This document shows positions 3,751 to 34,013 of a stretch of 34,334 nucleotides of DNA, piece by piece. Both the position numbers and the translations under genes were made by a program. This DNA is from Chloroflexota bacterium (GTDB lineage Bacteria > Chloroflexota > Chloroflexia > Chloroflexales > Chloroflexaceae): assembly GCA_030550625.1 (NCBI GenBank), contig JAUQOZ010000258.1, positions 1 to 34,334 of the forward strand, read 5' to 3'. Position 1 is the first letter of the stretch. The number at the start of each line of letters is the position of its first letter. The notes beneath the pieces were generated by a model, which saw only the letters and a program-made list of their open reading frames with translations, did no database searches and was not told the DNA's origin.

Positions 3751-5403
3751 TTATTGTTGGCGCGCTCGGATCGCGATAATCACACCGCCAATGATGCTAA
3801 TGACGATGATAGTCAATGCCAGTGCCATTCCAATCGCCTGTAATCCATTCAACTCCCAGCGCATCGGCTCTTGCAAGGCTGGCGCATTGCGTGCTTCGTC
3901 CGGCAACGCTATCGGTGTGGCGATGGGCGCAACCGCAATGCCGGCTGCTACGGTGGGGGTGGCCGGGATTGGGGTGGGGGTAAAGAGCGGTAAGCCGGGC
4001 CGGGCCGGCAGATTGAGTTTGGCGGTGCTGTACCAGATTTGGTGGATTGGTCGCTCGTTATCTTGGTTGCTCTCAAATAGCTGCGACCGGGTAAACCAGA
4101 CGGCGTGCAGTTGGTTGCCGTTGTAGATCGCCAACCGCGGCAATTCTGGATACAGTTCGTTTTGCATGATAATCCGCGGCGGTAGCCAGCGTGTGCCATC
4201 AAACGTCATGTGAATCAGCGCCGGTGGAGTGTCGGTATTGGCTACTCCCGTAAATCCAACCATCAACAAATGGACATTGTCGGCGCTATCGGTGGCTAGA
4301 CTGTAGTAGTCAAGGTTGTTGTCACTGATATTGCGGGCGCGCACATAAGGAATTTCAGTTGCCGGCAGCCATGTGTTGCCGCCATCAAGCGATCGTTGGA
4401 AGTACACCCGATCGTTGCGTACGCCGCGATAGACTACTGATGGATTCCCTGCTGAATCGACGGCAATCGCTGTTTGTTGCACCGCTTCAAGGGGTGGCCC
4501 GTTCGCGACGTCATTGGTTCGCAGATCATTGCCTAGCTGCTGGCGGATAGCCTGCACAGCGGTGGGAGGCAAACTGAATTTGACCGGATCAGTCCACGTT
4601 ACGCCGCCGTCGTCCGATCGGCGGTAGACACCGTAGTGCGGTTGGCCCTGTCCGGCGTACCAGTCGGCCCCTTCGTCCCAGACAATGTGGATCCGGTTGA
4701 AGGTGTCGACGCGCACCTGTGGCCGGTTTTCGCCATCGGCGCTCTGCGAGAGATTGACTACTGGCGACCACGTGGCGCCGTTGTCGGTCGAGCGACGGTA
4801 AAAGAGTTCACCGCACCCATAACAGCGCGGGTTCGTGTTGTCGGTCACAACATCGCTCCAAAAGGCGTGTAATCCGCCGGTCTGATCGGCAGCCAGTGCG
4901 AGGTAGTAGCCGGTATCGTTAAGCACTCGCCCCTCTGACCACGCTTGCGGTTTGAGAGCGTTGTTCCAATAGGCATGAGTGTAGAGGATGCCGGTGCCAG
5001 CCCGGTAGATCAGGTGGAGATTGCCATCACGTCCGAGGGCGATCGCGGTTCGCACCGTATAACCGCCAGTTCCCGGCGCAATCAGTTCACGGGCCGGTTC
5101 CCACGTACCATCGGCATTGCGGCGCCAGTACATCAGCAAGTCAATCGTACCGCCTTCACGTTGGTCAACGATCAAGCCGCCATACCAGACTGCATGAACG
5201 CTGCCATCGGGGCCAAGGGTCATATCAGGCAGCCATGACCATCCATAGCGGCGCTCGAGCTGTTCAATCGGTACTTGGCCGTATTGCAGCGGCGAGATTT
5301 CAATCGGTGTTGACCATAATCCTTGCCCGTAAGCAGAGGTATGAGCACCGGCTATGAATAGGATCGAGACCATCGTAACGAAGAGAATGAGCCGTGACTT
5401 CAT
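3751..5403 (-). CDS. Exported BNR/Asp-box beta-propeller protein with C-terminal membrane anchor
   Basis: This 550-residue protein begins with a signal peptide (residues 1-26, ending SAYGQ). Its middle carries three Asp-box motifs of the form S-x-D-x-G-x-T-W at about residues 205-212, 263-270 and 338-345, plus less perfect blades, the signature of a sialidase-like six-bladed propeller. A Pro-Thr stalk (about 473-485) leads to a single membrane helix at about 521-545 and a short basic tail, so the propeller should sit outside the cell, tethered. A CYGC pair at 194-197 could form a disulfide. I do not find the arginine triad or FRIP motif of true sialidases, so glycan binding is as likely as hydrolysis. 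Its ATG overlaps the stop of the Wzy/WaaL-like gene (ATGA), implying translational coupling and related function. Confidence 0.7.
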   Translation of the reverse strand: MKSRLILFVTMVSILFIAGAHTSAYGQGLWSTPIEISPLQYGQVPIEQLERRYGWSWLPDMTLGPDGSVHAVWYGGLIVDQREGGTIDLLMYWRRNADGTWEPARELIAPGTGGYTVRTAIALGRDGNLHLIYRAGTGILYTHAYWNNALKPQAWSEGRVLNDTGYYLALAADQTGGLHAFWSDVVTDNTNPRCYGCGELFYRRSTDNGATWSPVVNLSQSADGENRPQVRVDTFNRIHIVWDEGADWYAGQGQPHYGVYRRSDDGGVTWTDPVKFSLPPTAVQAIRQQLGNDLRTNDVANGPPLEAVQQTAIAVDSAGNPSVVYRGVRNDRVYFQRSLDGGNTWLPATEIPYVRARNISDNNLDYYSLATDSADNVHLLMVGFTGVANTDTPPALIHMTFDGTRWLPPRIIMQNELYPELPRLAIYNGNQLHAVWFTRSQLFESNQDNERPIHQIWYSTAKLNLPARPGLPLFTPTPIPATPTVAAGIAVAPIATPIALPDEARNAPALQEPMRWELNGLQAIGMALALTIIVISIIGGVIIAIRARQQ

Positions 5404-16695: not shown

Positions 16696-19179
16696 TCATC
16701 TTGCGACTGGCCTCACTGGTGCATCAGCCGCAGCGTTCGCTGGTGCATTGACGGTTGCCGGATCGCGCACTGCTACCTTCCACAGCGCGCCGCCAACCAT
16801 CGCCGCCAACGCATAGCCGGCGGCGCCGCTTAGCATTGCGGTGGTGAAGTTGCTCGCCATGCTGACCACGATCACCAATACTGATCCCAGCACCGAGAAG
16901 ACGCCGTTCATTCCCCATGCCCAGACCACGAGTCCCGGCGCGCGCGCATTGAGTTGGCGCAAACCTGCCGGGAAGGGGAGGCCGAGCATCGTGGCCAGCG
17001 GCGCGATGATGAAGATGCTGGCGACGATCCGCGCCAAATCAGGCCAGTGCATCCACGCTGCGAAGATCGGCGGCAGCGCAACGATATAGATTGTCGTCAG
17101 CGCCGCAATGCTGATCAATGCCAGCCGTAACCTGTTGGCGGTTCTAATGCGTTTGCTGCCCAACAGGCTGCCTAATGCGGCAAAGGCCAGCATACTAGCA
17201 ATGGTCGTGGTTGTCGCATGGATCGGGTAGCCGATAAAGAGCGTAAAGCGCTGGATCAGTACGATCTGAATGAACATATAGGCGGCGCCAAGCAAGCTGA
17301 AGTAGGCCAACGTAGAGATGGCGCCGGGCATGCGCAGGCCATCGCGCTGGTAACGCGCCAACGGTAACACAATGAACGCTACCGCTGCGCCAAGCGCGAA
17401 GATAGCCATGGTCAACAAAATCAGGTTGCCGATCGGAAAACGGTTGAGCCGCCCTTCATAACTGCGATCGAAGTGCAGGTTTTCCCAACGGAAGTAGTTG
17501 TAGAAGAAGGGGTTGTCATCGGTCACTGGGAAGATTTGAAATGGGTAGGCTCGCTCAAAAGCCCGTGGATCGGCAGCGTGCAAGTAGTCGGCGAAGGGAG
17601 TATTCAACCGTACCAACGGGTCGTGCAGCATCGTGAAGTTGTTCGCCGCACCCCACGCGCGCAGCCGTTCGATCTGTTCCGGCTGGAACGGCGACCGGCT
17701 GACCAGCAGCGTGGCATTGATCCCGCTCTCGTTGGCGATGATCGCAATATGCGTCGCCGGATTGCTCACCCCCATCCGGCGCAACGCTTCCGCCGCCAGT
17801 CCGGTTAAGCGCAGCATCTCGCGCGGCGGACTGTTGACATCACGTGTCCACGAGAAGATGCCGTTTGGGGTGAGTGCGTTCAACGCTTGTTCGAGCGAAT
17901 CAACCGTATAGAGGTATGACTCGGCGAGCACGTAGGCTCCGCCCGACAATGCCGCCAAGTTGTCGAGGCCGATGCCTTGAATGATGTCGTATTGCTCGGT
18001 TGTGCGACTAAGAAAACTGCGTCCTTCGGCGACGATCAACTCGGTTGAGGGGTGCTCAGCGAGCCGGCCAGTGTAATCAGCGTAACGATCTTGTAAGAGG
18101 CTCACGATCGTTGGGTTGAGTTCGATCGCAGTGATCTGTTCGGCGCGGTAGAGCCGGGCCAGCAGAATGTCAAGCCCGCCCCCTACCCCAATCAGCAAGG
18201 TGCGTGGACGCTCGTTGCCGAGCTGGTAGGCGGCGCTGATTACCGCGTGGTCAAGGAAGCGGAAACGTTCGAGATCGGTATCACTGCCATCAAACCGGTA
18301 CATCCCGGTCATCGACGTGCCGTCAATCGTCACCAGTTTCAGCGGCAGCTCTGGCCGGTTGTCTAGCGGGTAGCTTGAACTGACCGCGCCGACGATCATC
18401 GGTTCGGTGACAGTGATCTCTGGCATCACATCCACCCGCCCAACTGGATCCCAGCGGGTGAATTCAGGGCCGGTTCCTTGCACCTGCATCGCCCAACCCA
18501 GCTCTTTCGAGCCGGGTACGGCAAGGGTGGGTGGCCGCGCGATCAATGCTACCAACACCAGCGCTTCCGCGCCAATGATGGCCGGCAAGAGCCAACGCTG
18601 GCGTGGTTGGGCTTCGTAGCCGAGCAGCACTGCCGCCAATGCACCGATCAAGCCGATCAAGGCAATGACTGCCGGGCCGCCGATCGTGTGGATCACGAAC
18701 AAGACCGTCATTGTGGCGATGCCTGCCCCCAGCATATCGGCAAAATAGAGCCGGTGGGCAGCGCCGGCCCAGCGCCCAAAGATGGCGGCAATCACCAGCC
18801 CGCCGGTAAAGAACGTGCTGAATAGACATATAAAGTAGATGCCGAGGCCGATGATCGTCCAGCCGAGCTGCGCTGCGCGCAGTGGATCGATGGCGATGGT
18901 CGTAATCGCAATCAGATTGCTCAGACTGGCAAGGCTGAAAAGCAAAGCCAACGTGCCCAGACGCTGCTGGAGCTTATCAGGCCCCCAACGGCGCACGGCA
19001 AGGAATGTTCCGGCTGCTCCGCCGCCGAGCAAGGCGATACCGATCACCATATAGGTGAAGTGGTGCCAGATCATCAACGAAAAGATGCGGGTGAAGGTGA
19101 TTTGGAGGGCGAGAATACTGCCGCTCAGCAGCGTGAGGCCGAGGTACTTGCCGATCGATTGCAAAGGTGGAAACGTCAT
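16696..19179 (-). CDS. Large membrane protein with spermidine-synthase-like methyltransferase-fold domain
   Basis: An 827-residue protein in three parts. Residues ~10-215 hold about seven membrane helices. Residues ~240-560 form a Rossmann domain with RTLLIGVGGGLDILLARLY (glycine loop 331-335), AIELNP (acidic residue E353) and VAEGRSFL (384-390), as in spermidine synthase-like proteins. Residues ~590-810 are again membranous. True aminopropyltransferases carry an Asp-rich motif after YDxI; here that stretch is YDIIQGIGLDNLAALSGG, without the catalytic Asp-Ser/Ala-x-Asp. Polyamine synthesis is therefore unlikely and speE would be a misnomer. A role in modifying or sensing something at the membrane is possible. 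It is followed 28 bases downstream from the deacetylase-like gene. Confidence 0.7.
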   Translation of the reverse strand: MTFPPLQSIGKYLGLTLLSGSILALQITFTRIFSLMIWHHFTYMVIGIALLGGGAAGTFLAVRRWGPDKLQQRLGTLALLFSLASLSNLIAITTIAIDPLRAAQLGWTIIGLGIYFICLFSTFFTGGLVIAAIFGRWAGAAHRLYFADMLGAGIATMTVLFVIHTIGGPAVIALIGLIGALAAVLLGYEAQPRQRWLLPAIIGAEALVLVALIARPPTLAVPGSKELGWAMQVQGTGPEFTRWDPVGRVDVMPEITVTEPMIVGAVSSSYPLDNRPELPLKLVTIDGTSMTGMYRFDGSDTDLERFRFLDHAVISAAYQLGNERPRTLLIGVGGGLDILLARLYRAEQITAIELNPTIVSLLQDRYADYTGRLAEHPSTELIVAEGRSFLSRTTEQYDIIQGIGLDNLAALSGGAYVLAESYLYTVDSLEQALNALTPNGIFSWTRDVNSPPREMLRLTGLAAEALRRMGVSNPATHIAIIANESGINATLLVSRSPFQPEQIERLRAWGAANNFTMLHDPLVRLNTPFADYLHAADPRAFERAYPFQIFPVTDDNPFFYNYFRWENLHFDRSYEGRLNRFPIGNLILLTMAIFALGAAVAFIVLPLARYQRDGLRMPGAISTLAYFSLLGAAYMFIQIVLIQRFTLFIGYPIHATTTTIASMLAFAALGSLLGSKRIRTANRLRLALISIAALTTIYIVALPPIFAAWMHWPDLARIVASIFIIAPLATMLGLPFPAGLRQLNARAPGLVVWAWGMNGVFSVLGSVLVIVVSMASNFTTAMLSGAAGYALAAMVGGALWKVAVRDPATVNAPANAAADAPVRPVAR

Positions 19180-24731: not shown

Positions 24732-25334
24732 TTATTGTGGCAAGACAAATGCGCCGGGTAGCGGCAGTGTTGCAAACGGAGCACTCACTGCCTCTTCGGC
24801 CAACATCCAGCGCACCGCACCTAAGAGATCGGGGGCGATGAATGACGGCTGGTAGCGCCGCAATTCCGGCTTCTGTAATTCGCTAGCGCCACGCCCTGTC
24901 TTCACAAGGATGGTCTGGCATCCCATGCGCTGCCCTGCTGCAATATCGCTGAGCGCATCGCCGACAAGGTATGCCTCGCGGCAATTGATCCGGTGGCGGG
25001 CTGCCAGATCCTCCAACATCCCCGGTTGGGGTTTCCGGCAATGGCATTGCTCGTCGGGACGGTGCGGGCAGTAGCGAATGTCATCAATCTGCGCGCCGTG
25101 GTAGCTGGCGATGTCGCGCAAGCGGGCGTGAATCTGTTCAAGGGTTTCGACCGACATCAATCCACGCCCAACCGCTGCTTGATTGGTGACAATAAAGATG
25201 CGAAAACCGGCGTTGGTCAGGAGACGGAGCGCAGTGAGCGCGCCCGGTAGAAATTGGAATTCCGACCAATCTTTGACGTGGTCTGGCCGGTTGTGATTAA
25301 TGACGCCATCACGGTCGAGAAAGACAGCGCGCAT
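24732..25334 (-). CDS. gmhB: D-glycero-D-manno-heptose-1,7-bisphosphate 7-phosphatase
   Basis: A 200-residue HAD-superfamily enzyme of the usual GmhB length. FLDRDGVIN supplies the nucleophile D7 and acid/base D9. IVTNQAAVGRG is motif II. The zinc-binding loop is CPHRPDEQCHCRKP with C89, H91, C97 and C99, and GDALSD (125-130) provides the Mg-binding acids. GmhB removes the 7-phosphate of heptose bisphosphate, a step toward ADP- or GDP-heptose. Histidinol-phosphate phosphatase is the main alternative, but the glycan context and the heptose kinase gene at 33015 favour GmhB. It leads the long minus-strand series with an extended -10 promoter just upstream. I see only a G-rich AGGGGGG as ribosome site. 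Confidence 0.85.
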   Translation of the reverse strand: MRAVFLDRDGVINHNRPDHVKDWSEFQFLPGALTALRLLTNAGFRIFIVTNQAAVGRGLMSVETLEQIHARLRDIASYHGAQIDDIRYCPHRPDEQCHCRKPQPGMLEDLAARHRINCREAYLVGDALSDIAAGQRMGCQTILVKTGRGASELQKPELRRYQPSFIAPDLLGAVRWMLAEEAVSAPFATLPLPGAFVLPQ

Positions 25335-25359
25335 GAGCCCCCCCTAGCGCTGTAACGAG

Positions 25360-25368
25360 ATTATAGCA
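25360..25368 (-). promoter_or_regulatory. Extended -10 promoter of gmhB operon
   Basis: Read on the minus strand this is TGCTATAAT, a perfect TGn plus TATAAT. No good -35 is seen 16-18 bases upstream, which extended -10 promoters can do without. Initiation near 25353 leaves about a 20-base leader before the gmhB ATG. It could drive the whole long minus-strand gene series. Confidence 0.5.
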
Positions 25369-25618
25369 CGTAGTAGGTTGCAGGCTACGATGATAATGCT
25401 ACAGTACACCTTGTGGCTGAAGATCTGCTAACAGAGGTAGGAGCGAATTGTGACAATGCTGTCATCTTAGTCTGAGATGCTATAGCTATCAAAGGTTAGT
25501 TGGGATGCCTAGTTTGTTGTCTAAACCTTGGGATCCTACAATAAATGAGGTTATATGTCATAAAGTGCGTCTGGCGCCGCGCGTCGAGTCTTTTTGTAAA
25601 TTGTTGATAATTGTGATG

Positions 25619-25646
25619 TTGGTTTTTTGATTCTGTTAAGTATAAT
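25619..25646 (+). promoter_or_regulatory. Candidate plus-strand promoter in AT-rich spacer
   Basis: TTGGTT (25619-25624) and a perfect TATAAT (25641-25646) are 16 bases apart. If used, the leader before the GTG at 26123 would be about 470 bases and would include the palindrome at 25749. The AT richness makes chance matches likely, so this is tentative. Confidence 0.3.
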
Positions 25647-25748
25647 GATGTTGATTTGTGTGTGGTGATTTTTGTAAAATTTTTATGTTTAAAATATTAC
25701 TTTGTGTAAACAGTGTTGTTGTCAAGATAATATAAAGAGTGAAAAGTA

Positions 25749-25762
25749 AGTACTATAGTACT
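25749..25762. promoter_or_regulatory. Palindromic operator-like element, copy 2
   Basis: AGTACTATAGTACT is a perfect 14-base palindrome and shares its first 13 bases with 302-314. The right flank also aligns with that copy if a few bases are gapped. Both copies sit in AT-rich spacers 5' of lone plus-strand genes. It is probably a dimeric regulator's site; the regulator is unknown. Confidence 0.4.
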
Positions 25763-26104
25763 AGCGATTTGCTTCTGCACGCAGATTACAATGATCACAT
25801 CTTATGCTTTCATTGTCGCTAGATAACTATATGCAATCAGCGTGGTTGGCAATAGAGATTCTTATAAGGTGTTGAACCATCTTTCAAGCAAAGCTAACTA
25901 CCGCTAGCTCATGCCATGCATTCGTCGTTGCATGCATCGCGCTATTTCTCACACCTCGCGACCTTAACACTGCCTGCTACGCCTAATACTGGTCTCATCT
26001 GGAGCCATTGACTAAGATGCGGTATTCACGGATTGGCCCTGTCATCCGCTCAGCTTCTAGCGTCAAGCCTCATAGTGGATGAGTAAGTTGGCCGTCCAAC
26101 CAAT

Positions 26105-26117
26105 CCTTATAAGGAGG
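26105..26117 (+). promoter_or_regulatory. Ribosome site overlapping a palindrome, sets GTG start
   Basis: AAGGAGG (26111-26117) lies five bases before the GTG at 26123 and decides that start. Its left part is half of the 10-base palindrome CCTTATAAGG (26105-26114). CTTATAAGG also occurs at 25861-25869. A protein bound here, or pairing with the upstream copy, could limit translation; this is speculation. Confidence 0.55.
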
Positions 26118-26122
26118 CTGCT

Positions 26123-28447
26123 GTGTCACAGAGGAAATTCTGGCAGTACACACTTCGTCTATTCACGATTGCGCTCATCATCGCTACCCTTCCACTATTC
26201 ATGCCATCAGCGCGTAGTGTGGCCAGTTCTTCCTTTCCTGTCTATATACCGCTCGTGTCAAAGCAGATGATGCCGCCGATCGTGTTTGTCTCGCGGCAGA
26301 TTATGCCTCAAGGCAGCATCTACTGGAACGTGCCCAAGGGTTTGGCGGGTGTTGGCCCGTATAGCCGGTTTGCGGTGGCGGCGCCGGGCAAGTTGATGGT
26401 GCTGGAACCCGATGGCCGCGTGCGGGTGTTGATTGACGGCGCAAACCCCGCTTCCACTGCGCCCTATAACTTGATCGATGTTAATGCGCCCGACGTTTCG
26501 TATGACGGAACGACGATTGTGTTCGCCGGTCTCCCGCAGGGACGGTATGAGTCAGGAGCGCTTACCAATCCGGGGGCTTGGCGCATTTACACAATCAAAG
26601 CGGATGGCAGCGGTCTGCGCCAAGTTACAACATCAGACCAACGTCTTGACCTCACCCAGTTCGGCCCCGCAGCCGGCGGTTTAGCCGCTTATGACGATAC
26701 TGATCCGGTGTGGTTGCCCGATGGCCGGATTGTCTTCTCTTCGACTCGCTGGCCCGCGTATGCCCATTACAGTGGCGTTCGCGCCTCTAATCTGTTCGTG
26801 GTTAATGCCGATGGCAGCAACATGCGCCGGATTACCTCAGAGCGGAATGGGGCCGATCGCCCGTTGGTTGATCCAATCACGGGCAAGATCGTCTATGCGC
26901 GCTGGTGGCGCAATCACCGCTTCCCTGTCAATGATATGTCCACCATTCTCGATCCCAACGGTGGCTATATTCAACGCGACGGATTAACTGCTGATCGGAA
27001 TAATCCGGTTGGTGGCGAGACCATGTTTCGCAATGCTTGGCAGGCGGCCACGATCAATCCAGACGGGACTGAGTTGGCGATGTGGGCTGGCGCCTTCCGC
27101 AACGAAGAAGCCAATCATGTTTATGGCGGCGCTTTCACTCCAGAAGGGGATCTGATTGCGAACTATTTTCCGATGTACAACATGACGGAAGCTGCCGGGT
27201 TTGGCGGCTTGCGCCGCTACCGTCGCGGCGCCGGCGGTTATACGCCGCTGCTGGGGGTTACGACCTTGACCTTCGACTACGTCAATCCACGAAATCCAAC
27301 CTCGTTCGGCATTTTCAAAGGGCAGTATGTGACCGATCCCGATGTGTCGAACAACTGGATGGTGGTGTCGCTGGCGCGTGACATTGGCCAAGACTATGGG
27401 CTGTATCAAACCCAGATCGATGGATCGGGCCTACGCCTGCTCTACGATAACCCCGGCACTGCCGAGGTGCGGGCCCGTTTCCTCGCGCCGCGTCCGTTAC
27501 CGCCAATCATTCCCGATCGCATTACCCAAGTGCCGAGTCTCCTGCCGCCGACCGCAGCCGGGCCGTATGACAACGATGGCACGTTTATCTTTGACGCGCT
27601 CAATGTGTATGCCAACGGCCCCGTCGATATGGACATTGTGAACGCGCCGCCGGTCGGCTCTGCCCGCACCATTCGCTTTTTCATCGATCATCAGCGGACG
27701 AGTCCGGGGTCATTTCCGAATCTCGACTGGCCTATCCTGCTCGGTGAGCTGGCAGTGCAACCGGATGGTTCGGTGCGCAACCCAAATGCGCCGGCGAATG
27801 TGCCACTCTTCGAGCAACTGCGCGGGCCAAACGGGAGGGTGCCGCTGACGGGGATGCGTTCCGATCCGGATGGCGCAGCCCATGTGGCCGGAATGAATTT
27901 TGGCCGTCCGGGGGAACGGCAACGTTGTGTCGGTTGTCACGCCGGCCATACGCTGATACCGGTGCCGCCAACCGATGAAGCGGCCCGGTGGAGCAATCTA
28001 GCGCCGGGAGCGACGATCAGAGTCTCTTCGGCGCTCGATTCGCGCTATGTGAGCGGCCTAACCGATCGGCGCGTGATGAAAGGCGAAGTATGGCAGTATT
28101 GGCGGAGCGCTGCGAATCAAACCAGTGGGCAGTGGGTGACGTTGACCTTCCCGGTGCCGGTCTCGGTGCGACAGGTGCGTCTCTACAATCCGCGCAGCGC
28201 ACCCAACACCGATCTCCAAGTGCATCAGGCGACGGTGCGCCTCTTTAGCGATGAAGCTGGAACCATCGAGGTGGCCCGGCAGACAGTTGGGCGGCTCAGT
28301 ACCTTTGGTACCAGTGTCGAGTTTGCTGATGTTCAGGTGCGTGTGGTGCGGGTCGAGATCGACCGGGTCAGCGGGCGGGTCGATGGGGTGACGTGCGCGA
28401 GTTTGGCCGAGATAGAGGTGATTGCGCGCGGCGAGGCGGGGAATTGA
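26123..28447 (+). CDS. Exported HzsA-like PD40 propeller protein with CxxCH haem motif and discoidin-like domain
   Basis: A 774-residue protein read from a GTG. Residues 1-34 are a signal peptide, then PVYIPLVSK. Residues ~48-480 show TolB/PD40-type blade motifs: PDVSYDGTTIVFAG, DDTDPVWLPDGRIVFSSTR, NLFVVNADGSNMRRIT, and AATINPDGTELAM. IRFFIDHQRTSPGSFPNLDWPILLGELAVQPDGSV then leads to RQRCVGCHAGH, with a haem c motif C602-x-x-C605-H606. This order matches hydrazine-synthase-alpha-related proteins, which occur far beyond anammox bacteria. Residues ~623-774 (NLAPGATIRVSSALDS, VRQVRLYNPR, VRVVRVEID) resemble a discoidin/F5-8C sugar-binding domain. A surface-attached monohaem protein is inferred. 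True hydrazine chemistry is not implied: there is only one haem site and no companion subunits. Confidence 0.75.
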   Translation: MSQRKFWQYTLRLFTIALIIATLPLFMPSARSVASSSFPVYIPLVSKQMMPPIVFVSRQIMPQGSIYWNVPKGLAGVGPYSRFAVAAPGKLMVLEPDGRVRVLIDGANPASTAPYNLIDVNAPDVSYDGTTIVFAGLPQGRYESGALTNPGAWRIYTIKADGSGLRQVTTSDQRLDLTQFGPAAGGLAAYDDTDPVWLPDGRIVFSSTRWPAYAHYSGVRASNLFVVNADGSNMRRITSERNGADRPLVDPITGKIVYARWWRNHRFPVNDMSTILDPNGGYIQRDGLTADRNNPVGGETMFRNAWQAATINPDGTELAMWAGAFRNEEANHVYGGAFTPEGDLIANYFPMYNMTEAAGFGGLRRYRRGAGGYTPLLGVTTLTFDYVNPRNPTSFGIFKGQYVTDPDVSNNWMVVSLARDIGQDYGLYQTQIDGSGLRLLYDNPGTAEVRARFLAPRPLPPIIPDRITQVPSLLPPTAAGPYDNDGTFIFDALNVYANGPVDMDIVNAPPVGSARTIRFFIDHQRTSPGSFPNLDWPILLGELAVQPDGSVRNPNAPANVPLFEQLRGPNGRVPLTGMRSDPDGAAHVAGMNFGRPGERQRCVGCHAGHTLIPVPPTDEAARWSNLAPGATIRVSSALDSRYVSGLTDRRVMKGEVWQYWRSAANQTSGQWVTLTFPVPVSVRQVRLYNPRSAPNTDLQVHQATVRLFSDEAGTIEVARQTVGRLSTFGTSVEFADVQVRVVRVEIDRVSGRVDGVTCASLAEIEVIARGEAGN

Positions 28448-28465
28448 CCCACCGGTTGTTGCGTA

Positions 28466-28516
28466 GCGTGATGTGGCTGATTAGTTGTCCTCATCCGGTC
28501 ACATCACGCCGGTTTT
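28466..28516. terminator. Hairpin terminator between convergent genes
   Basis: GCGTGATGTG (28466-28475) pairs perfectly with CACATCACGC (28500-28509), a 10-bp stem extendable by wobble pairs, around a 24-base loop. GG then TTTT (28513-28516) follows. It lies 18 bases after the stop of the 774-residue gene and 33 bases past the end of the opposing gene, so it may serve the plus strand mainly. The loop is longer than usual. Confidence 0.5.
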
Positions 28517-28548
28517 GCTATCGAGCCAGCCCAAGAATCGCGGCCAGC

Positions 28549-29886
28549 TTAGCATTTCAGCGCCGGCCTTACGCTGGCCAGATTGAACCAACGGCGCCGA
28601 TACAGCGTGCGGTTTGACTGGAAGACAAGCGCAGCGATAAAACCGAACAGGATCACCAGCGCAACCAACCGCACATCAGCAAAAAAATACTCGCGCAGAT
28701 AGTCGCCGCTCAAGAACCACCACCCGCGCTTAAATTGCCACTGTCCTAAACGATTGAGGGTAAGGTTCTCAAATGCGATCAGCATGTAGCTGATCGCGAG
28801 CACGATAGCGAGTGGCATGGTGCGCCGGGCATTCAGGTGTACCAAATAACCGGCTGTCACCGCCACAACCAAAAGTGTCCAAACGAGGTGGTGCTCCCAC
28901 GTGATGGGTGAGAGAAGGTGCATGCCCAGCACCCATAGCCCGAACAGCAGCCCAAATGTGGGATCGTTGGTGCTTCGTTGTGGCAGACTGCACAAACCCA
29001 AGACACTGAGAACGATCAGAGTTGCCAGCCAGCGCAATCCCGGCTCAAGGGGTGCAATGTTGAGTGCGCCGGTGAGCCGGTGCAGAAAGGCGGCTGGCGA
29101 AGCGTTATCGATCCAATCCACTTGGATCGGAATGCTGTTCATGAGACTGACATTAATGAAACCGGCAAGCGATTGCGGCCCCGCCACAAGGGCAGTGAAC
29201 ACGGTGAGCAGCGCAAGTGATGCTGCAAAGCCCCAGATGGCCTTCCATTGGCGTTGAAATACAAACAAGCCGATCAAAAGCAATGGACTGATCTTGATCA
29301 TTGCGGCAATCCCGATCATCACGCCGGCCAGAAACATCCGTTGCTGGAAGGCGCTGGCAAACGCAGCGGTGATCAGCAACAGGATGAGAATATTGATCTG
29401 CCCAATATCAATCGAAAGATAGAAGGGGTACATATTTCCAGCAAGGATAACTAATATGGGCAGCGACCAGCGTTGGAACATCGGTAAACTCTTGCTCAGC
29501 AGCAGCAGTGTTCCGGCGAGGAAGATCTGGTTGATAACGACCCACACCTTGTACGCGAGCGGGTATGGCAAAGTGCTGAGCGGGGAAAGAACGATCGCTA
29601 AGAGGGGTGGGTAAAGGTAGTATTGTACTTCAGGATAAGCGACTGACGAATGGGCTGCGGTGAATTGCAGCGCTCTACGATGGTCATACATGTCCTCGCC
29701 GGCGCGCAGCATCGCCGCGGCAATGTAGTAGGTCTGAAAATCCCCGCCTTGGCTGAGGCTCCGTCCCATGATCGGCAGGGCAACGCCATCAACCGCATAG
29801 CGGGTAATGGAAAACACGAGGACAAGCGTCACAAGAATCGCACAGATCCGCTCTCCCTGCCCTAACGCGCCGTGCTGATCGCTCAT
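28549..29886 (-). CDS. GT87-like (DUF2029) polyprenyl-phosphate-dependent mannosyltransferase
   Basis: A 445-residue protein with about ten membrane helices. After helix 1, the external loop reads GRSLSQGGDFQTYYIAAAMLRAGEDMYD, the GT87 signature with its conserved Asp, followed by YPEVQYYLYPPLLAIVLSPLS, the aromatic Y-P-P motif typical of the family. GT87 enzymes, such as the actinobacterial alpha-1,2-mannosyltransferases, use polyprenyl-phosphate-mannose on the outer membrane face. AAGGAGG lies about 6 bases before the ATG. It is the last gene of a three-gene operon that begins with a synthase-like GT2 able to make such a donor, which supports the assignment. Confidence 0.78.
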   Translation of the reverse strand: MSDQHGALGQGERICAILVTLVLVFSITRYAVDGVALPIMGRSLSQGGDFQTYYIAAAMLRAGEDMYDHRRALQFTAAHSSVAYPEVQYYLYPPLLAIVLSPLSTLPYPLAYKVWVVINQIFLAGTLLLLSKSLPMFQRWSLPILVILAGNMYPFYLSIDIGQINILILLLITAAFASAFQQRMFLAGVMIGIAAMIKISPLLLIGLFVFQRQWKAIWGFAASLALLTVFTALVAGPQSLAGFINVSLMNSIPIQVDWIDNASPAAFLHRLTGALNIAPLEPGLRWLATLIVLSVLGLCSLPQRSTNDPTFGLLFGLWVLGMHLLSPITWEHHLVWTLLVVAVTAGYLVHLNARRTMPLAIVLAISYMLIAFENLTLNRLGQWQFKRGWWFLSGDYLREYFFADVRLVALVILFGFIAALVFQSNRTLYRRRWFNLASVRPALKC

Positions 29887-29926
29887 CGTCTCCTCCTTGA
29901 GTGATGGAGAATCTCTGACAGCGGCT

Positions 29927-31525
29927 TTACCGGTCAGCGTAGAGCGCCAATTGCTCGAACTGGCGGTTGGCGCAAGCGAATGCCGGTTGCTGGCGGAAGC
30001 TGTGCAATGCGGTGTGCGCTACGCCGGTGTGGGTGAAAAACCATGCCTGCTGAGCTGGCTCGTAAGCATCCAGATCTTCAATGAAGACCCGGCCACCGCT
30101 TGTTTGCCGCGCACGGATCACATCTGCGATGGCCGCAACGAGGGCGTTGTCGCCGTTGACCCGCGCTGAGAGATCGATCAAACTTACGGTGTCGCATCCG
30201 TAGAAATAGCTGAGATATCCGCCAAACGACCAGTCGGTTTCCAGAAAAACATCGCCTGCGCGCAGATGCTGGGCCACGCATGCCGCCTGTTCGATATTGG
30301 GATTTGGCACGGTCGCGCGCGGCCAAATAGCGGCCTGAAAGTTTCCCAGCCCAATCAAGAGAATGCATGCGCCGGCGAGGATGATTGTTGGGCGCGACAG
30401 CGCCGGCGAACCCCAAACGACGGCAATAGCGGCGGCGAGGAACAGATTCGGAACCACCAACCACTTTGGTTCGTAGGGATCCCACCAGATGATGAAGGGC
30501 AGAAAGATCGCGTAGGTGGCGCCGATCCACCCGAGTTGCCGGTACGGCAGGTGACGCCAGCGCACTGCGTGCCAGATCGACATCCCTGCTAATCCCATCA
30601 GCGCCAGCAGGCTCAGCAGGGCAGGGATTTTGTCGATCGGCAATGAACCGCTGAGCAAATGCCGCAATCCGAGCCCGCTCCATAGGGGGATGATGCTGGC
30701 GATCGCACTGATTCCCGCCGGTACGATGCGATCCGGAGACCATGTGCCCCAGACCGGCAGGCGCGCGCCGCCATAGTTGGTTAGCCAGCTTATGATCGCG
30801 GCAAGATCGCGATGGCCATAAACGAAAAACGCAACTGACAGGTAGCACAAGCTGAGGATTACGCCGCATGTGCTTGCGATGACGGCAACCGCGCTGAGCC
30901 GGTCGCGGAACGGTTGCTCGCGGTGGTTTACCAACGGGCTGATGGCGATCATTGGCACGAGGAACACGCATGCTTGCCATGTGAGAATGGCAAGCGCACA
31001 GCAGAGGCCGGTGAGCAGGCTGGCGGCGATTCGAGGAGGATACAAGCTGCTGGCGAAGGCGCCTGCGCTAAACGCTGCTGCCAATGGAATGTAGTAGATG
31101 TCGGTGCTAAAACTCCACTGCGCCCAAGAGAGGGCTAAAAACGCGCTACCGAGCAGCGCGCCGCTTGCAGACGCCGATAGTCGCTGCAAGGCAAGGCTAG
31201 CCATGCCAATAGTCGCTGCACCCGCTAGGGCGGTGATGAACGTGAGGATCGGATCAACCGGTCCGGCATAACCCAACGTTTGCGCCGTTATATAGGCGAG
31301 TCGCCCAATGATGCCGTAGAGCATGTGGTTCGGACGGAAGATATCGTGGCCGCCGCGTGCGATCGCCATCGCTTCGGCGACGCCGTTCAAGTCGTGCTGG
31401 ATGGAACCGAACGGCAGGTACAGCACGAGACCGCTCAGCAACCCACCCCAGAACCAGTGCCATGGCGAGAGTGACACTTGGCGCTGACCAGTATCTAACA
31501 GGTGATCTGCATGTAAGGTGCTCAT
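29927..31525 (-). CDS. Polytopic membrane protein, probable GT-C glycosyltransferase
   Basis: A 532-residue protein with about twelve hydrophobic helices and a soluble C-terminal ~110 residues. The first external loop reads FGSIQHDLNGVAEAMAIARGGHDIF then RPNHMLYGIIGRL. An acidic loop followed by H-x-L-Y-x-x-x-G-R-L is reminiscent of TMEM260/DUF2723-type membrane mannosyltransferases, but the match is by eye and weak. The start overlaps the stop of the synthase-like GT2 by four bases (ATGA) and the next gene is 40 bases on, so the three are one operon. Using the same polyprenyl-phosphate sugar as its neighbours is inference. Confidence 0.6.
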   Translation of the reverse strand: MSTLHADHLLDTGQRQVSLSPWHWFWGGLLSGLVLYLPFGSIQHDLNGVAEAMAIARGGHDIFRPNHMLYGIIGRLAYITAQTLGYAGPVDPILTFITALAGAATIGMASLALQRLSASASGALLGSAFLALSWAQWSFSTDIYYIPLAAAFSAGAFASSLYPPRIAASLLTGLCCALAILTWQACVFLVPMIAISPLVNHREQPFRDRLSAVAVIASTCGVILSLCYLSVAFFVYGHRDLAAIISWLTNYGGARLPVWGTWSPDRIVPAGISAIASIIPLWSGLGLRHLLSGSLPIDKIPALLSLLALMGLAGMSIWHAVRWRHLPYRQLGWIGATYAIFLPFIIWWDPYEPKWLVVPNLFLAAAIAVVWGSPALSRPTIILAGACILLIGLGNFQAAIWPRATVPNPNIEQAACVAQHLRAGDVFLETDWSFGGYLSYFYGCDTVSLIDLSARVNGDNALVAAIADVIRARQTSGGRVFIEDLDAYEPAQQAWFFTHTGVAHTALHSFRQQPAFACANRQFEQLALYADR

Positions 31526-32325
31526 AGCGTCCGGCCTTTCTCAGCGCTGAGGCTGGAATCTGCCGGTTGCAACAGCGGAGCCTGATAAGCTCCCCGCCAA
31601 TCGTTGAACCGGACCCGCAGCACATCGCGCAGGTTTCGCCATGAGTCGCGCACCGGATCAACCTTCGTTTCGGCGCCGTAATGCCACAAGACCGGCACTT
31701 CAGCGATGCGATACCCACGCTGGCGCGCCAGAAAGAGGAGTTCGACATCGTAGGCGGTGACGGCGGCTCCCTGTACAATCGGCGCATCATCGCCGTATAT
31801 GCGCACGCGCCGGAAGAGATCGTGGGCTACTGATAGCCGCAACGCTTTAAACCCGCATTGGGTGTCATTGATTCCCGGCAGGGCGATCATCTGCACTAGC
31901 AGATTAAAGATGCGCCCCATCAAATGGCGGTGGAATGGTTCATCGTACCGCTGCGCGCCGATCCCTTCCCGCGACCCGATCACGACATCGAATCCAGCGT
32001 TGAAATAGGGCCATAGTTTTTCCCACTCCTCGATCGGTGTGGCCAAATCGGCGTCGCACAACAGCACATACTCGCCGCGCGCAGCGAGTGCGCCGGCGCG
32101 CACGGCAAACCCTTTGCCGCGATGCTCGCAGCGGAGCACATGGACGCCGGCATAGCTTGCAGCGAGGCTGGCAGTGCCATCAGTGCTGCCATCGTCAACA
32201 ACGATGATCTCGGCGGGGAAGGATTGCTGGGTGAGGTGGGCACTGATGGCAGCTAAAGTGGTTGGCAAGCGGCGGATTTCGTTGTAAGCGGGGATGACGA
32301 CCGATAGAAAAGGTGTTGCGGCCAT
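31522..32325 (-). CDS. GT2 polyprenyl-phosphate hexose synthase-like (DPG/DPM family)
   Basis: A 267-residue soluble GT-A enzyme. LSVVIPAYNEIRRLPTTL, VVDDGSTDGT, HRGKGFAVRAGALAARGEY and LLCDADLATPIEEW (metal motif D91-x-D93) are followed by GSREG and GINDTQCGFKALR, the diagnostic C-terminal region of dolichyl-phosphate glucose/mannose synthases. It has no added membrane domain. The reaction would be transfer of glucose or mannose from a nucleotide sugar to polyprenyl phosphate, giving the donor for GT-C enzymes. AGGAG is 6 bases before the ATG. As first gene of the operon with two GT-C-like proteins, it likely supplies their donor. Confidence 0.85.
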   Translation of the reverse strand: MAATPFLSVVIPAYNEIRRLPTTLAAISAHLTQQSFPAEIIVVDDGSTDGTASLAASYAGVHVLRCEHRGKGFAVRAGALAARGEYVLLCDADLATPIEEWEKLWPYFNAGFDVVIGSREGIGAQRYDEPFHRHLMGRIFNLLVQMIALPGINDTQCGFKALRLSVAHDLFRRVRIYGDDAPIVQGAAVTAYDVELLFLARQRGYRIAEVPVLWHYGAETKVDPVRDSWRNLRDVLRVRFNDWRGAYQAPLLQPADSSLSAEKGRTL

Positions 32326-33014
32326 ACATCACTCCTGTGGGTGAACGGGAAGAGTGATCTGGTGGCACGGTGGGGTGGGAGTGTGAGAGAGAGGTAGGTG
32401 ATTTTTTGGTATTGTGAGAATAATCACGAAAGATTATTTTTGAATGAAAAAAGAATGATTTTTGATTAAAATATAGATATAAAAATATATAAAAATTACT
32501 TTCCTTTAAAAATGTATTTTTATAAATTTTATACATTGGAACTACATCGCGATTCCTAGTCTGTACAGTTCATTCGGCAATAGCACGGCTTTCTCGGCTA
32601 GTCAGAGCAAGGCGCCATGCCTTCAATCTATAGCGGTGATACATTCTGCGGGGTTGGACGTTATTGAGCAGGTAAGCATTTGGTTATAGAGCGCATTGCG
32701 CATATCGCTCTTCCATCAGGCCGGGAAGGTTTTTCCGCTGATGGACAGCAGATGGCTTGCGCCGCAGCCAAATGACCAATGGCGTGCTGAGGCTTTACAA
32801 TGCCTTCTGCTGTCGTCGCTTGCGTGACGTAAACAAATTGCTATCTTCTTTGCGCTCATTAATGAAGTTTTTGTCATCCGCTTGCAATTCGCTCGGATTA
32901 TACTGAGGCAGTATTGATTGACAGGTAAGACCGTGCTTCTCAGGTGTTGTTCTGCCATCAGCAGAGTGGTTGAGAACGGTGGAATGCTCACGCTAAACCA
33001 CAAGGGGCAATGCT
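32326..33014. other. AT-rich divergent intergenic region
   Basis: A 689-base spacer between the synthase-like GT2 (minus) and hddA (plus). Bases 32395-32545 are extremely AT-rich. It carries a CRP-like palindrome (32413-32428) overlapping a weak minus-strand promoter: TTCAAA at 32444-32439, a 16-base spacer, TATTCT at 32422-32417. AATGTAT/ATACATT arms occur near 32511-32540. The right half is of ordinary composition. I see no convincing gene; an AAGGGG ribosome site (33002-33007) precedes hddA. Confidence 0.55.
32413..32428. promoter_or_regulatory. CRP/FNR-like operator candidate
   Basis: TGTGA-N6-TCACG matches nine of ten specified bases of the classic CRP site TGTGA-N6-TCACA. It covers the candidate -10 of the three-gene minus operon, so a bound protein would be expected to repress. 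Other lineages' CRP/FNR-family proteins bind related sites; the regulator is not in the window. Confidence 0.3.
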
Positions 33015-34013
33015 ATGATCATCTCACGCACGCCGTTGCGGATTAGTTTTGCCGGTGGCGGCAGTGATTTGCCGGCCTTCTACCGCCATGAACCGGGGGC
33101 AGTGGTGAGTACAGCGATCAACAAGTATATCTACATCACCGTCAACGAGAAGTTTGACCATCAGATCCGGGCCAGCTATTCAGTAACCGAGATTGTTGAT
33201 CAGGTGGATGACCTCAAGCATCAACTGATCCGGGAAGCGTTGCGTTTGGTGGGGCGGCAGCATTCGATCGAGATTACCTCGATCTCCGATATTCCCTCGC
33301 AGGGCACTGGTCTCGGTTCATCGAGCACTTATACCGTGGGTCTCTTGAATGCGCTCTACGCCTTTATTGGCCGCTTTGCCGGCGCCGAACGGTTGGCCCG
33401 CGAGGCGTGCATTATTGAGATTGAGCGTTGTGGCGCGCCGATCGGGAAGCAAGATCAATATATTGCTGCCTATGGCGGGTTGCAATTCATTCAATTTAAC
33501 CCTGATGAGACGGTGTTTGTTGACCCGATTATCTGCCGTGCTGAAACGAAGCAACGCTTGCAGCAACGGTTGATGATGCTGTACACCGGTGCTACCCGCA
33601 AGACGAGCGATGTGCTGCGCGAGCAGCGCGAGAATACTGAGCGTGATGAATCGCGCCGCCGGCATTTGCGCCGTATGGTGGAGTTGGCGCATGATCTGCG
33701 CCTTGCCCTGCACCACGATGACCTCGATGCGTTCGGCGAGATTTTGCACGAGGGCTGGATGCGCAAGCGCGAGTTGGCGAGCGGCATTTCGACGCCGCAG
33801 ATTGATGATTGGTACGAGCGGGCGCGGGCTGCCGGCGCGATCGGCGGCAAGATTCTCGGCGCTGGCGGGGGCGGGTTTTTGCTGGTCTATGCGCCTGAAG
33901 AGCGCCATGACGCCATCCGGGCGGCGTTGCCCGAATTACGCCATGTGCCCATGCAATTTGAGCCGCAAGGTAGTAAAATAATCTACGTGGAAGAGCGGTC
34001 GTTGGATTCGTGA
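33015..34013 (+). CDS. hddA: D-glycero-D-manno-heptose-7-phosphate kinase (GHMP family)
   Basis: A 332-residue GHMP kinase. It opens IISRTPLRISFAGGGSDLPAFY, has the ATP-binding glycine/serine motif GTGLGSSST at 97-105 (preceded by DIPSQ), then GAPIGKQDQYIAAYGGLQFIQF and the C-terminal KILGAGGGGFLLVYAPE. The full pattern, including D-x-P-A-F-Y and IGKQDQYIAAYGG, fits HddA enzymes, which phosphorylate C1 of heptose-7-phosphate in the GDP-D-glycero-D-manno-heptose pathway. Fucokinase or other sugar-1-kinases are the alternatives. AAGGGG lies 7 bases before the ATG. With gmhB in the same window, two pathway steps are present; the isomerase GmhA and guanylyltransferase HddC are not seen. Confidence 0.85.
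   Translation: MIISRTPLRISFAGGGSDLPAFYRHEPGAVVSTAINKYIYITVNEKFDHQIRASYSVTEIVDQVDDLKHQLIREALRLVGRQHSIEITSISDIPSQGTGLGSSSTYTVGLLNALYAFIGRFAGAERLAREACIIEIERCGAPIGKQDQYIAAYGGLQFIQFNPDETVFVDPIICRAETKQRLQQRLMMLYTGATRKTSDVLREQRENTERDESRRRHLRRMVELAHDLRLALHHDDLDAFGEILHEGWMRKRELASGISTPQIDDWYERARAAGAIGGKILGAGGGGFLLVYAPEERHDAIRAALPELRHVPMQFEPQGSKIIYVEERSLDS

Follow-up and report, generated by a model that had tools for sequence, protein, structure and literature searches.

Hydrazine synthase is the signature enzyme of the ammonium-consuming anammox bacteria. It was once regarded as having arisen with no relatives, until recent work reported distant ones (PMC12758564, PMC10732223). At the haem alphaI site of its alpha subunit, HzsA, the histidine of the CxxCH motif (His587) binds zinc while Tyr591 binds the haem iron (PMC12607021). 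A 2025 survey of HzsA homologues found Tyr591 to be missing, with a two-residue gap, in clades I–III, and clades II and III to be without the alphaII site as well (PMC12758564).

An HzsA-related protein of 774 aa is encoded in the window described here (the whole stretch of 34,334 nt that was analysed), which comes from a Chloroflexus-type genome and reads as a surface-glycan locus. A relative of the same genus (G207) carries the locus, which is also present in C. islandicus. The gene (start codon GTG) stands alone on the forward strand, with a gene for a GmhB-like phosphatase on one side and genes for membrane proteins on the other. The features referred to below are:

24732–25334, reverse strand: GmhB-like HAD phosphatase, bordering the variable site on the left (homology by reading; synteny)
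26111–26117, forward strand: ribosome-binding site AAGGAGG ahead of the GTG start (sequence)
26123–28447, forward strand: HzsA-related protein with a single haem motif and a DUF7402 tail, 774 aa (ORF, Pfam, predicted fold)
26123–26227, forward strand: predicted N-terminal signal peptide, residues ~1–35 (read by eye from the sequence)
26255–27493, forward strand: beta-propeller of PD40/TolB type, residues ~45–457 (TolB structural match; PD40)
26264–27979, forward strand: HzsA-homologous core, residues 48–619, equivalent to HzsA 54–600 (VIA-align; profile match to 5c2v_A)
27737–27940, forward strand: match to PF18582 (HZS_alpha middle domain), residues 539–606 (Pfam)
27926–27949, forward strand: haem-site motif CVGCHAGH, residues 602–609 (alignment)
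27995–28420, forward strand: DUF7402 discoidin/lectin-like domain, residues 625–766 (Pfam, E = 9.9e-10; Foldseek)
33015–34013, forward strand: GHMP (sugar) kinase, bordering the variable site on the right (homology by reading; synteny)

The first-pass annotation had described an exported propeller of HzsA-like type that carries a single c-type haem motif and a discoidin-type tail and lies in a glycan locus, and the ORF, the Pfam matches and the structural model agree with this description, export being read from the leader. The leader has a basic start and a hydrophobic core (residues ~11–30), reads by eye as a Sec signal peptide, and formed a helix (residues 2–26) in a first model of the protein. 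The CVGCH motif lies at exactly the residues originally given (602–606); it is the sole CxxCH of the protein and is followed by G608 and H609. Of the profiles that had been proposed, PD40 scored above its cut-off (22.3 bits), while PF18582 reached 24.2 bits against a cut-off of 26.6 by hmmscan (28.7 bits with neighbouring pieces) and was matched by 21 of 51 family members at E 0.01. F5_F8_type_C remained below its cut-off on the tail, where DUF7402 was found instead (39.1 bits, cut-off 27), and DUF7402/discoidin-like describes the tail better than a strict F5/8C label would. A survey of homologues detected DUF7402 in 42 of the 51 members scanned. Thirteen of the 51 carry a T9SS sorting tail, which would place those members at the cell surface. 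The segment SPGSFPNLDW, also singled out in the original description, is present as part of the HzsA-type middle domain, although its conservation is only partial.

The fold was predicted by AlphaFold2 for residues 45–774. An earlier model built from nine sequences was poor (pLDDT 57) and was replaced by one from an alignment of 70 sequences (pLDDT 94.2, pTM 0.94), in which both the propeller and the discoidin-type fold are present, as had been anticipated. The best-matching solved structure is HzsA of Kuenenia stuttgartiensis (PDB 5c2v_A; Foldseek E = 2.2e-21), to which VIA-align superposed 433 residues with a Z-score of 34.3, an rmsd of 2.9 Å and 19% identity. The aligned region covers the propeller, the middle domain and the haem alphaI site, and stops just past the latter, leaving the alphaII cytochrome domain of HzsA without a counterpart; the DUF7402 tail stands in its place. 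Consistent with this, a sequence profile matched 5c2v_A collinearly (E = 4.6e-15), with CvGCHaG aligned to CSGCHYG, whereas a search of the PDB with the single 774-aa sequence returned no match. TolB came next after HzsA (Z ~25–26 over residues 1–413 of the model), and shares the propeller fold of such PD40 proteins but has neither the haem site nor the lectin tail. The predicted tail resembles CBM32/CBM47, F-type lectin and other discoidin modules, among them the fucose-binding lectin modules 3lei and 2j1r (Foldseek TMt 0.72–0.73, 21–26% identity), a likeness of fold.

Around 90 relatives were found in Chloroflexota, Bacteroidota/Ignavibacteria, Planctomycetota, Acidobacteriota, Eisenbacteria, Gammaproteobacteria (two Tahibacter isolates) and a few other groups, one scan of genome contigs returning 96, of which 80 were kept; none was found on viral contigs. 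Four contigs labelled as other phyla (L059, L070, L074, L075) carry members 57–65% identical to the 774-aa protein, and matches of this identity labelled Gracilibacteria, Phycisphaerales and Myxococcaceae may be misbinned Chloroflexota contigs or reflect recent transfer. The motif CxGCHxGH (C602, G604, C605, H606, G608 and H609) is invariant in all 70 aligned members, which answers the question of CxxCH conservation raised by the first-pass annotation. As the pattern used for the family scan was itself based on the motif, invariance was checked again on members recovered in other ways (including those with CIGCH, CMGCH and CHSGH), and since it extends to homologues found without using the motif, this is not a chance motif.

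The family differs from HzsA within and just beyond this motif. Five HzsA sequences found in this analysis, called true from their motif, length, second haem motif and duplicate copies in two genomes rather than from a named record, read CxGCHxGSYRGR. All five have tyrosine at the Tyr591 column, where the 774-aa protein has T610 and the family T, S, V, A or M, and the Ser590 column is occupied by the invariant histidine (H609). Unlike clades I–III of the survey, the family shows no gap in this region of our alignment but has a histidine instead. HzsA-like proteins of Planctomycetota and Desulfobacterota (clades I–IV of PMC12758564; L144–L172) share the core and the first CxxCH, but lack the invariant histidine three residues after CxxCH, and most of those examined have a second CxxCH ~35–100 residues later, where the 774-aa protein has only one. 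Absence of alphaII alone is not unique, since clades II and III also lack it. For tree reconstruction, the tail and the residues after CxxCH were left out, and 33 family rows were compared with HzsA and 18 HzsA-like proteins; the family rows fell on one side of a branch with SH-aLRT 99, in a quick search with some long branches and one flagged long-branch join among the outside rows. As judged from this tree, the CxGCHxGH proteins used make up a single clade, to which neither true HzsA nor the two-haem HzsA-like proteins belong. The clade is widespread and apparently undescribed; the library searched contained no paper on DUF7402 or on HzsA-like proteins of Chloroflexus.

We favour, with a probability of roughly 0.6 for structure and localisation taken jointly, an exported mono-haem c protein of the HzsA fold that is held at the surface or in the periplasm by its lectin-like tail. 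Counted in its favour are the fold and profile matches, the invariant motif, the clade, DUF7402, the leader, the T9SS tails of relatives, a cytochrome-c assembly family (PF01578) in the genome, and the lack of any CCP_MauG match (PF03150, gamma-type) in the same genome, which is 99.75% complete. The leader would export the protein, haem c would be attached covalently at C602 and C605, H606 or H609 would ligate its iron, taking over from the HzsA tyrosine, and the tail would bind sugar and so keep the protein at the envelope or matrix. At a guess, some small molecule such as NO, hydroxylamine or peroxide reacts at the haem with no gamma-type diheme partner involved, a chemical step that we regard as doubtful. 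For the clade as a whole, with histidine in place of the HzsA tyrosine, glycan-anchored surface haem chemistry on small nitrogen or oxygen species is a tentative proposal, the odds being against it; if true, the active-site fold of hydrazine synthase would have a use independent of anammox. Counted against the favoured reading are the marginal PF18582 score, just under the cut-off, the lack of a conserved operon pointing to a reaction (none was found across 78 loci), the lack of a single conserved distal ligand, and the fact that H606 and H609 could form a zinc site with the two cysteines.

The haem could instead serve a surface electron-transfer cytochrome with bis-His or His/Met ligation and no enzymatic activity. 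Several residues suit such a role: the single haem motif is accompanied by the invariant H609, by histidine at residue 587 in 57 of 70 members, and, at residue 591 (11 before C602), by methionine in 44 of 70 or histidine in 3 of 70, where HzsA has tryptophan. No distal ligand is fully conserved in the 70-member alignment, however, and a conserved redox partner is lacking, CxxCH-bearing ORFs occurring near only 5 of ~78 loci, so that this alternative is possible but doubtful. A MauG/CCP neighbour was seen only at L077 and L112. At the former, in a Planctomycetota MAG (L077:483-5190), a gene 185 bp upstream on the same strand encodes a protein of 692 aa whose C-terminal domain is CCP_MauG, and the pair resembles the HzsA/fused beta-gamma pairs described in PMC12758564.

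The motif may also be read as binding zinc through C602, C605, H606 and H609 rather than haem, in which case the protein would be a propeller of structural or adhesive function that bears a lectin tail. All four possible ligands lie within eight residues and are invariant, the equivalent His587 of HzsA binds zinc (PMC12607021), and the haem ligand Tyr591 is lost in the family. Yet the site shares its ancestry with one at which covalent haem is proven, glycine at the third place of CxxCH recurs in every HzsA and in nearly every HzsA-like protein compared, and the protein, judged by its leader, is exported in an organism whose genome encodes the cytochrome-c assembly family. We therefore consider zinc binding unlikely.

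The first-pass annotation had further proposed that the tail docks the protein onto the polysaccharide of this locus, and this part was not supported. A haem-based sensor or adhesin dedicated to that polysaccharide would fit the position of the gene, which lies within a surface-glycan locus not only in the window but also in C. islandicus and a Roseiflexus MAG (L048; there it adjoins other genes of a related locus), and the glycosyltransferase (GT) or Wzy genes that lie nearby in a number of other lineages. However, the HzsA-like gene occurs in only three of eight Chloroflexus genomes, whereas the HlyD-like gene that lies nearby in the locus has a close orthologue in all eight. In four of these genomes (L216–L219, from G118, G052, G206 and G134) gmhB and the GHMP kinase gene adjoin, with ~180–200 bp between the matches, as an empty site. 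Others carry between one and four genes in the variable site (25334–33015 in the window): three further genes accompany the HzsA-like gene in C. islandicus and the window, while in one MAG (L047) it lies between gmhB and the GHMP kinase gene without them. In one further locus (L215, genome G086) the sequence after gmhB matches the two membrane proteins of the window in fragments, with no HzsA-like gene before the contig end, possibly a partial loss. Since the flanks adjoin without it in four genomes, the HzsA-like gene is optional cargo.

Matches to glycan genes numbered 22 among the 223 ORFs within 6 kb in Chloroflexota-type loci, 4 among the 92 lying beyond 6 kb and 7 among the 337 of other loci (near-identical loci included); outside Chloroflexota, 1–3% of nearby ORFs matched such genes. 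These counts indicate no general link of the family to glycan genes. The link of the HzsA-like gene to the glycan locus is thus weak, being that of an optional gene most of whose relatives elsewhere lie outside glycan loci, and a dedicated sensor or adhesin is quite improbable. The gene has either been acquired by loci of this kind on more than one occasion or travelled along with them, and a functional tie may exist.

That the protein is a true hydrazine synthase alpha subunit, signifying a hidden anammox-type activity in Chloroflexota, is suggested by the HzsA fold and haem alphaI motif but is next to impossible as far as sequence can say, given the single haem motif without alphaII, the missing Tyr591, the absence of a gamma-type (HzsC-type) diheme gene, the separate clade in the core-only tree, an NCBIfam hydrazine_alpha score of 18.4 bits against a cut-off of 800, and the loss of key residues in other HzsA homologues too (PMC12758564).

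The CxGCHxGH clade is large, spans many phyla and includes cultured isolates (Chloroflexus islandicus and Tahibacter), and its members carry a single haem motif and, for the most part, lack a gamma-type partner in the vicinity. They therefore offer a simple model, amenable to expression, in which to learn the role of the HzsA haem alphaI fold outside anammox and, perhaps, in the time before it.

Some neighbouring and related genes deserve mention. The largest linked neighbour group is a T9SS-tagged Ycf48-like (PSII_BNR) propeller in Ignavibacteria, whose gene adjoins the HzsA-like gene, mostly divergently, at loci such as L086, L088, L089, L092, L094 and L097–L099; it was rejected as a family member, having clustered with the family only through the common sorting tail. 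A different HzsA-like group in Planctomycetota (L162–L166) has the motif CGGCHAH, with histidine two residues after CxxCH, and a second CxxCH. Elsewhere in the window, nt 3751–5403 encode a BNR/sialidase-like repeat protein with a C-terminal membrane anchor, a similar protein of which adjoins the HzsA-like gene in L057, and nt 16696–19179 encode a membrane protein that reads as having a spermidine-synthase-like domain.
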